In this document: positions 6,447 through 38,968 of the stretch, in pieces | How the letters are laid out: each line of letters opens with the position of its first letter | How positions within the stretch are numbered: the stretch's first letter is position 1 | Source of the DNA: Pezicula radicicola | Taxonomy: Eukaryota > Ascomycota > Leotiomycetes > Helotiales > Dermateaceae | Direction: 5' to 3' | NCBI GenBank assembly: GCA_003008705.1 | Contig: PDUO01000048.1 | Coordinates: forward strand, 314,611 to 378,610 | Length of the DNA: 64,000 nucleotides | Notes under the pieces: model-generated | The model's database searches: none | What the model was told of the DNA's origin: nothing | Seen by the model: only the letters and a program-made list of their open reading frames with translations | Translations under genes and position numbers: made by a program

Positions 6447-7582
6447 TAGTATCGGAGAAGAAAGTAGAACAGTGTTGTTTGCGGGTCGAAAATGCCTAAA
6501 CTTGGCTGTAAACTTCTTACTAACCACGGTTTAGCTTTATACCAGAGTAGTGTCTGCTAACTCCTTGTAGGTTCCTTGTTCTTCGTATTCAGTGGGCCTT
6601 CCTTGTTCTAGTGCCATTGCCTTACTCGTCCGTTTTGTTAGGCGGCGAGTATTGCGTTTAAAATGGGATAGTATGTTTTTCTTGAAACTTGGTGATATAG
6701 TTCTTAGTCCTTAGGTGGCAGTGCAAATGCAACAGAAGAGTTGTATTTGGAAAGAAGATATTGGCTCCGCAGCAGAGTAGTATTATGATAAAGAGTAACA
6801 AATAGGCAAAGAATGGATTGAATAGCGGAAGGAGAAAATTTGCATACAATGTTGGTCACTAAAGTAGCGTCTCCTAGTCCTAAGTGCCAGGAGGACCTAA
6901 GTCGGACTAAGTAACGGCAACGTACACAAAGTAGGTGAGTGAAAACTAAAAATCCATTGAGATTACATGAGGTATCGGAATACATTGTAGACTAGACGGA
7001 ATCGGTAAAATAAAAATAAACCAGTTGTCAGAGGCTGTCTTACCTCTTTATGCCAACGGTACAACCAAGCTTCGAGAACTGTTGCAGGGCCTTAATAGAT
7101 TTATGTTTTAAATATTCTTGCTGCGATATTGAATGGTTGTTTCCTAGCTACTATATTAAGGTGTCAAAAAAATTGAGTTACTCAAACCAAGTAGATTACC
7201 TAAATTATATACTTTACGTAAGGTACATACCTCAAAGGAAGACCTGATGTATATATATTACTGTTATTTTAGACTCTTGGATGTGTCATAAAGTCATATA
7301 GCAGTGACTGGATTATACGAAATGAGTTTAGTTCCTATAAGAAAACTTCGTTCCTATGGTCTGGAAGGGAGCAGAGGGAGGTGTAAAATTGACTGTAGGC
7401 GTATATGAAATGTTTTCCGCTTTCCGTACCTCAAGCTAGTAATTTAGTCACTTTAGCGAGAACCAAGCTAAAAGGTAGGCCCCCTCCCGGCTATCTAACA
7501 TAATCCTAAATTAACACTTCCACTTCAACAAACAACACAAACACTCTGATACTTCATCACCAAGTGTATTCAACACTTCTCA
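6447..7582. other. Intergenic between decayed gene and tRNA-Asp
   Basis: Nothing supportable was found. Short ORFs at 6658-6849, 6704-6985 (minus) and 7050-7247 (plus) have no domain, no splice continuation and biased composition. The stretch from 7480 to 7582 directly precedes the tRNA gene and is AC-rich. Confidence 0.4.
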
Positions 7583-7731
7583 TCTTTGATGGTCTAACGG
7601 TCATGATTTCCGCTTGTCATTCTTCAAAGAATCTCAAGCGCGGGAGATCGGGTACGCTTCCTTCCTTCATGTAATAAATGAAGCGTCTTTACTAACAGTT
7701 CACTTATAGGGTTCGACTCCCCGTCAGAGAG
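7583..7731 (+). tRNA. tRNA-Asp(GTC) interrupted by two introns
   Basis: Acceptor stem TCTTTGA (7583-7589) pairs with TCAGAGA (7724-7730); the discriminator is G7731. The D-arm contains A-box TGGTCTAACGG. Anticodon stem TCCGC (7609-7613) pairs with GCGGG (7640-7644); the loop reads TTGTCA, intron, C, so the anticodon is GTC at 7616-7618. The 19-nt intron 7620-7638 lies at the canonical 37/38 position, and its CAAG end can pair with the anticodon-loop TTG. A 4-nt variable loop AGAT follows. The T-stem CGGGG is split: CGG (7649-7651) and GG (7710-7711) surround a 58-nt insert. Rejoined, CGGGG-TTCGACT-CCCCG forms a perfect T-arm with an intact B box. The mature length without both inserts is 72 nt before CCA, the size of yeast tRNA-Asp. 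It is either a working gene needing two splicing systems or a pseudogene. Confidence 0.85.
7652..7709 (+). other. mRNA-type intron-like insert in the tRNA T-stem
   Basis: The 58-nt insert begins GTACGC, the same donor as the third DUF6604 intron at 1578. It contains an exact TACTAAC branch site at 7690-7696, and ends in TTATAG with the branch A 14 nt from the end. Its ends coincide with the break that restores a perfect T-stem. It sits immediately upstream of the B box, so the internal Pol III promoter is preserved. Assigning it to the spliceosome is inference from these signals. Confidence 0.65.
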
Positions 7732-7737
7732 AATATC

Positions 7738-7746
7738 TTTTTTTTT
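7738..7746 (+). terminator. Pol III terminator of tRNA-Asp
   Basis: A run of nine T on the non-template strand starts seven bases after the discriminator base, the usual position and form of a Pol III terminator. Confidence 0.8.
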
Positions 7747-7813
7747 CCCTCTCAGATTTGAATATGAGAGCCAAATTTCACGCTCGGACCATGTCGACTT
7801 ACTATAAACTTCC

Positions 7814-7833
7814 TGTCAGAGAGATATCTTTTT
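7814..7833 (+). repeat. Partial duplicate of the tRNA-Asp 3' end and trailer
   Basis: GTCAGAGAGATATCTTTTT here repeats the acceptor 3' strand, discriminator, trailer and T run of the tRNA-Asp gene (7723 onward) with one A missing. It is preceded by GTCGACTT, which resembles the T-loop. No other tRNA part is present. Confidence 0.5.
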
Positions 7834-38882: not shown

Positions 38883-38968
38883 GGGCCTAATCCGGGATCG
38901 AACCGGAGACCTCTTACATTTTGAATCAAAGACCCAAAGCAAGAATTCTACCACTGAACTATCAGGCC
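38883..38968 (-). tRNA. tRNA-Pro(TGG) with a 14-nt intron
   Basis: Acceptor GGCCTGA (38968-38962) pairs with TTAGGCC (38890-38884), discriminator C. Anticodon stem CTTGC (38943-38939) pairs with GTAAG (38917-38913); the anticodon TGG lies at 38936-38934. The intron 38932-38919 occupies the canonical 37/38 position. The T-arm is TCCGG-TTCGATC-CCGGA, a perfect stem with intact B box. Mature length is 72 nt. It stands at the very edge of the AT-rich block, with its 5' end facing the Copia element 82 bp away. Confidence 0.92.

Follow-up and report, generated by a model that had tools for sequence, protein, structure and literature searches.

Background

Spliceosomal splicing is classically confined to the RNAs of polymerase II, with U6, U3 and some rRNAs as exceptions, and tRNA introns are classically removed by the tRNA endonuclease. 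Among the described systems that come closest to the genes reported here, the U6 snRNA of fission yeast carries an mRNA-type intron (Tani and Ohshima, cited in PMC10484740), the precedent of a Pol III RNA with such introns that a preliminary description of our locus had named. In addition, spliceosomal introns have been described in the rDNA of lichen fungi (Bhattacharya et al. 2000, cited in PMC8527467) and in fungal U3 snoRNA genes (PMC5832005). Non-canonical tRNA introns are known from Cyanidioschyzon merolae, nucleomorphs and archaea (PMC4090602, PMC9602550), and a pre-tRNA with a T-arm intron is left unmodified by the C. merolae enzyme Pus4 (PMC9602550). In the review on non-canonical eukaryotic tRNA introns, which deals with the red alga and nucleomorphs, the word stem 'spliceosom' does not occur (PMC4090602). 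A search of the open-access literature turned up no paper describing tRNA genes with spliceosomal introns and, within these same bounds, no counterpart of the T-arm case, for which the preliminary description likewise knew of none.

Results

The window tRNA-Asp gene and its two introns

The window, i.e., the whole 64,000-nt stretch analysed, comes from contig PDUO01000048.1 of Pezicula radicicola (GCA_003008705.1, a 61 Mb assembly in 152 contigs). Among the best 120 of 529 matches of a protein search, the leading named hits were from Penicillium and Mollisia at 62%, which puts the genome no more narrowly than within the filamentous ascomycetes. On its plus strand, an interrupted tRNA-Asp(GTC) gene of 149 nt occupies positions 7583..7731, of which 72 nt remain in the mature form without both introns. 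Exon 1 (7583..7619) comprises tRNA positions 1-37 with the anticodon GTC, as called by ARAGORN on the spliced gene. It is followed by a canonical 37/38 intron of 19 nt (7620..7638, ARAGORN), of the tRNA-endonuclease type by its position, and by exon 2 (7639..7651), which runs from position 38 to 51 and whose last three bases open the T-stem. A second, mRNA-type intron of 58 nt (7652..7709; GTACGC...TATAG) then splits the T-stem between 51 and 52, as judged from sequence reading, excision and five paralogs. Its branch site TACTAAC lies at 7690..7696, with the branch A at 7695 and 14 nt from there to the intron end. Exon 3 (7710..7731) leads from T-stem position 52 to the discriminator base G73; the limits of exons 2 and 3 were set by sequence reading together with ARAGORN.

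The preliminary description had reported this GT/TACTAAC/AG insert, its place immediately 5' of the B box, the 37/38 intron, and an intact A box, B box and nine-T terminator, and each of these proved accurate, the insert to the very base. The A box TGGTCTAACGG (7590..7600) and the B box GGTTCGACTCC (7710..7720), read from the sequence and taken to be such from their consensus, are both uninterrupted, the latter being contained in exon 3 from its first base on. The T9 run at 7738..7746 reads as a Pol III terminator, and the TCAACA upstream of the gene (7570..7575) may be a Pol III start-site motif. Further downstream, at 7812..7833, lies the decayed 3' end of an uninterrupted tRNA-Asp copy. The window also holds another tRNA gene on the minus strand (38883-38968), which ARAGORN calls Lys(CTT); by eye it reads as tRNA-Pro(TGG), interrupted at 37/38 by a short intron.

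Unspliced, the window gene is missed both by ARAGORN and by Rfam at the gathering threshold, and it is recognised by ARAGORN as a cloverleaf with an Asp anticodon once the T-stem insert is excised. As the preliminary description had stated, GT-to-AG removal restores a 5-bp T-stem (CGG being joined to GG to give CGGGG/CCCCG) and a 72-nt tRNA-Asp(gtc). Three excisions are equivalent by shift at this insert, and just one of them has GT..AG ends. Note that the minimum-energy fold of the spliced 72-mer is not the cloverleaf, and folding is therefore not discriminating.

An excision control was run over 13 B-box-like sites of the window with 294 excisions each (3,822 sequences), and tRNA calls spanning the excision occurred at the Asp site only. 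There were 162 such calls, with many different boundaries, so that the control demonstrates tRNA-likeness at this site without singling out GT-AG. Random 58-nt segments of the window, set into the Asp site, would read as GT..AG with a probability of 0.011, which falls to 0.0005 when a CTRAY branch site is also demanded. Two other kinds of intron were rejected. A bulge-helix-bulge (BHB) intron would show more than the 1 of 4 central pairs seen here, and a Rfam scan of the window at the gathering threshold listed no group I or group II intron; a length of 50-60 nt is moreover too short for the catalytic core of these introns.

A family of interrupted tRNA genes in the same genome

The window gene is not alone, since at least 18 interrupted tRNA genes, from 8 isotypes and with six insert positions, were identified in the same genome: six for Asp, three for Tyr, two each for Val(TAC), Ser(TGA) and Lys(TTT), and one each for Glu(CTC), Arg(TCT) and Thr(TGT). 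According to our own cloverleaf reading, from which the position numbers were assigned, the inserts lie in the acceptor stem at 4/5 (Thr), in the D-arm at 9/10 (Lys) and 10/11 (Arg), in the variable region at 47/48 (Val), and in the T-stem at 49/50 (Ser) and 51/52 (Asp, Tyr and Glu).

Besides the window gene itself, six members were found by similarity, six by pattern only and five by an Rfam scan. A DNA search of the assembly with the window gene returned six Asp genes with both introns (the window gene and the five paralogs that share its architecture), together with L007, in which the T-stem is uninterrupted. The similarity-found genes (five Asp through the window gene and Lys_L130 through Lys_L065) are not independent observations. 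The pattern search combined a branch site, AG and a B box, and thus requires CTAAY..AG; it gave 31 places (30 taken as loci), 13 of which are interrupted tRNA genes by reading, namely six Asp, three Tyr(GTA), two Ser(TGA), one Glu(CTC) and one Val(TAC). Those found in this way only are the three Tyr, the two Ser and the Glu genes. The raw count is no evidence by itself, because the reversed control pattern gave 33 places versus 31, i.e., no enrichment.

The Rfam tRNA scan of the genome, for its part, is blind to splice signals. It returned 57 matches and revealed five interrupted genes of four isotypes: the two Val(TAC) genes (one of them also in the pattern set), Lys_L065, the Arg(TCT) gene and the Thr(TGT) gene. 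The GT..AG ends of these five genes were therefore not selected for. As this search scored 63 of 2,516 candidates, 18 is a lower bound.

ARAGORN found none of the 18 genes unspliced and all 18 after GT..AG removal, and in 16 of the 18 it placed a second, 37/38 intron in the same gene. It names the interrupted Glu gene Ser(cga), the anticodon being CTC by eye. A custom tRNA model applied to 43 chosen loci matched all interrupted genes with 16-58 bits, several of these matches being partial or split. Unusually long 37/38-type introns of 78 and 82 nt were called by ARAGORN at the loci L039 and L042.

Signals of the inserts

All 18 inserts start with GTA[ACT]G, end with AG and measure 50-60 nt. 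In 17 of them there is a CTAAY motif whose branch A is followed by 10-16 nt, the exception being Val_L040, which has ATTAAT instead. Five of the six interrupted Asp genes have the branch site TACTAAC, the sixth TACTAAT. The chance that a random window stretch placed at the insert sites reads GT..AG is 0.0075-0.011 per site, and 0.02-0.06% when a branch site is added. The window's own candidate mRNA introns display the same signals and similar lengths: among nine in-frame candidates, picked by a GTRNG/CTRAY/AG pattern in protein-like frames without transcripts, seven measure 50-62 nt and two 72-73 nt.

Runs of T are scarce in the inserts. Runs of four or more occur in 1 of 18 versus 6.5 expected (0.2% of shuffles), and runs of five or more in none versus 2.2 expected (8%); with one intron taken per class, the former become 1 of 10 versus 3.7 expected (5% of shuffles). 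In contrast, they are not scarce in the mRNA-type introns of the window (2 of 9 versus 2.0 expected). When the exon-intron junctions were examined for a BHB, 17 of the 18 genes formed 1-2 of the 4 central pairs, and Thr_L062 gave a mixed result, with all 4 central pairs and with flanking pairs numbering 2 in the exon and 1 in the intron.

Uninterrupted paralogs, copy numbers and conservation

Six of the eight isotypes also have uninterrupted copies: Asp, Glu, Ser, Arg and Thr, together with Tyr, whose intact genes are of another isodecoder. Several of these paralogs match the spliced genes exactly. The spliced Asp gene and L007, and likewise the spliced Ser gene and L126, are identical from 16 nt 5' of the junction to the 3' end, and the spliced Glu exons are identical to all six uninterrupted Glu genes. 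Leaving aside the 37/38 intron, spliced Arg_L064 is identical to L018 and L019, over their first 40 and 44 letters and their last 38 and 36 letters, respectively. Thr_L062 differs from the uninterrupted L021 at positions 6 and 67 only, the two changes amounting to an A-U to U-A exchange. In the Tyr genes, double changes are found at the anticodon-stem pairs 29-41 and 31-39, and the anticodon stem of L083 is copy-specific.

Mature parts and inserts also differ in how well they are conserved. For Asp, the mean pairwise identity (gaps counted) is 0.995 in the mature part, 0.754 in the T-stem intron, 0.658 in the 37/38 intron, 0.654 upstream and 0.483 downstream. A T in the D-loop is private to the interrupted copy L002. 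The same contrast between mature part and insert was observed for Tyr (0.964 versus 0.707), Val (1.000 versus 0.559) and Ser (1.000 versus 0.690), and the two Lys introns, which share one site, have by eye little in common beyond the splice signals.

Copy numbers were taken from the best candidates listed, so that additional, more divergent genes may have escaped for any isotype. Among these candidates there are six interrupted Asp genes (the window gene included) and one intact gene, L007, which gives the number of tRNA-Asp(GTC) genes that the preliminary description had proposed to count. For Val(TAC), both of the two genes listed are interrupted and no intact gene was found. One of seven Glu(CTC), two of three Ser(TGA) and three of five Tyr genes listed are interrupted, the two intact Tyr genes representing the other isodecoder. 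For the interrupted type of Lys(TTT), two interrupted, no intact and two decayed genes are among the candidates, and a different, intact Lys(TTT) gene is present (L009). The intact Arg genes number at least two and the intact Thr genes at least one, neither figure coming from a dedicated search.

Decayed copies complete the picture. In a relic of a Tyr 3' half (L115, G000:C129:46772-46824), branch site and acceptor are both gone. As for the two decayed Lys copies, L129 retains the 3' end of the intron and L131 has a D-arm junction without an insert.

Locus history and other RNA genes

The intact Asp gene L007 (G000:C76:615926-616020) is by eye a mosaic, with a 5' flank resembling that of L005, a 37/38 intron resembling that of L006 and a trailer resembling that of the half-gene 3' of L002. 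Its 3' trailer GAGAGATAT is similar to those of the uninterrupted 3' half after L002 and of the decayed one in the window, and unlike the trailer GAGAGAATAT of the interrupted Asp genes. With this trailer and the L006-like intron, L007 looks by eye like the outcome of an insert deletion by recombination rather than like an ancestral gene. The Glu insert, which interrupts one of seven copies, looks by eye like a recent gain.

Uninterrupted Asp 3' halves also lie 3' of L002, L003, L005 and L006, where they are clearer than the one at 7812-7833 of the window. They have no recognised 5' half, as if a tandem pair had once existed at each locus, and the B boxes of these gene/half-gene pairs are 93-232 nt apart.

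Other RNA genes were also considered. In 5S rRNA, another Pol III RNA, all 47 scored matches are without an insert, these being the best of 2,522 candidates and thus a biased sample. One U6 snRNA gene (L133, G000:C3:394362-394523, minus strand) contains by reading two mRNA-type introns, the first (GTGAGT..GATAG) near the 5' stem and including an A-box-like TGGTCTAGTGG, the second (GTGGGT..CTTAG) after AGCATG and set off as inserted sequence when aligned to the Rfam family. Another U6-like gene, L132, has no interruption. A search with 5.8S rRNA gave three matches and did not reach intact rDNA, and the flank of the best one (L134; match at G000:C78:235929-236079) has no Rfam match at the gathering threshold.

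Discussion

The architecture of these genes, their exact uninterrupted paralogs and their pattern of conservation are established from the DNA. The mRNA-type reading advanced in the preliminary description gains support from 18 genes in 8 isotypes with exact uninterrupted paralogs, as well as from splice signals kept in otherwise drifting introns and from compensatory stem changes. We therefore consider, with a probability of about 86%, that the T-stem insert of the window is a spliceosomal, U2-type intron in a functional nuclear tRNA-Asp gene that is one of at least 18 such genes.

In the corresponding model, Pol III would transcribe through both introns (A box, B box and terminator being intact in the window gene), and the spliceosome would recognise GTA[ACT]G, CTAAY and AG and excise the T-stem intron. 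With CGG rejoined to GG, the T-stem CGGGG/CCCCG could form, and the 37/38 intron would be removed by the tRNA endonuclease and a ligase. We infer Pol III transcription and spliceosomal excision as well as the order of these steps and the need for the spliceosome. The weakest link of the Pol III model is that, for the 5' introns (Lys, Arg and Thr), the start site is uncoupled from the A box. In these genes the A box is split, or its distance from the 5' end is increased by ~50-56 nt. Under the usual placement, transcription could then start inside the 5' intron, and the genes would need either a TATA element upstream or Pol II.

This displacement is also what speaks for the view that the spliceosome does act, on Pol II transcripts that would supply tRNA in a regulated fashion or in minor amounts. 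We regard this as unlikely, given that the B boxes, the downstream T runs and the few T>=4 runs within the introns fit Pol III, and that A and B boxes are both intact in the genes with T-arm introns. More improbable still is that the interrupted genes are dead copies, in which an insert entered a redundant tRNA gene and is not spliced out at all, as with the random pseudogene relic that the preliminary description had set against its own reading. The existence of uninterrupted paralogs for six of eight isotypes and of decayed interrupted copies (L115 and L129) would be in keeping with it, and insertions in the D- and T-arms of eukaryotic tRNA genes have mostly been supposed to mark pseudogenes (PMC4090602). 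However, the mature parts are 96-100% identical where introns and flanks drift, the splice signals persist, stem changes are compensatory, the relic L115 lacks its branch site and acceptor, and Val(TAC) is interrupted in both genes found. Gene conversion could mimic some of the exon identity, but neither the kept splice signals nor the compensatory pairs.

Endonuclease-type introns in D- and T-arms are known from C. merolae and archaea (PMC4090602, PMC9602550), and the inserts might accordingly be non-canonical tRNA introns cut at a BHB, as in that alga and some archaea; the four central pairs of Thr_L062 would agree with this. We judge it very improbable, since the other 17 genes form only 1-2 central pairs and the flanking helices of the Thr gene are weak, and since such cutting would leave unexplained both the GTA[ACT]G, CTAAY and AG kept within drifting sequence and the lengths matching those of the window's candidate mRNA introns. 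An artefact of assembly or contamination, which the reliance on a single assembly might suggest, is scarcely credible when the genes are spread over 14 contigs (C1, C3, C61, C62, C63, C69, C79, C80, C81, C95, C98, C112, C113 and C131) and the insert sequences differ from place to place.

If the inserts are spliceosomal introns, production of these tRNAs probably requires the spliceosome on top of the normal tRNA-splicing enzyme. The isotypes with intact paralogs (Asp, Glu, Ser, Arg, Thr and Tyr) need not depend on the spliceosome. As an example, the Asp supply need not rest wholly on splicing, because the intact L007 has the same mature sequence. Val-UAC differs in this respect: if it is truly supplied by interrupted genes only, translation would depend on spliceosomal processing of Pol III precursors. 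More broadly, it appears likely that we are dealing with a class of nuclear tRNA genes with spliceosomal introns, gained repeatedly and in any arm, that would be the sole source of at least one isoacceptor, Val-UAC, thereby making translation in this fungus spliceosome-dependent, and that would be invisible to the tRNA finders applied here and maybe common in unsampled fungi.

Machinery and intron type are both known, and it is the class of tRNA genes that is new within the literature searched; we call it new because it departs from a boundary held to be general, by which the introns of tRNAs are the domain of the tRNA endonuclease. The occurrence of both kinds of intron in a single tRNA gene, and in many genes, would break the textbook separation. 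It also offers natural tests of the requirement for Pol II and cap binding in splicing, of the effect that an intron breaking the T- or acceptor stem has on tRNA modification and end processing, and of how introns are gained. In addition, tRNA genes are missing from the annotation of such genomes, as ARAGORN missed every one of the 18 genes unless the insert was removed.

Compared with the non-canonical tRNA introns of C. merolae, nucleomorphs and archaea, our inserts similarly lie outside 37/38, in D- and T-arms (with position 3/4 also used there), and several introns can share one gene. They differ in that those of archaea and C. merolae are of the BHB type and tied to the endonuclease and those of nucleomorphs measure 3-24 nt (PMC4090602, PMC9602550), whereas the present ones carry GT, branch and AG signals, with the BHB absent in 17 of 18 genes. 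Fungal U3 genes likewise encode a non-coding RNA and carry canonical pre-mRNA splice sites; in contrast, U3 is a single RNA with almost a single intron position, and not a tRNA. The rDNA introns of lichen fungi are likewise spliceosomal, in odd places and in an abundant structural RNA that does not come from Pol II, but they reside in Pol I rRNA and the present ones in tRNA. Another parallel is fungal U6, where short GT-AG introns with a branch site also interrupt a Pol III RNA gene; unlike U6, the genes described here belong to the tRNA class, are numerous, span 8 isotypes and six insert positions, and in 16 of 18 cases combine the mRNA-type intron with a 37/38 intron.
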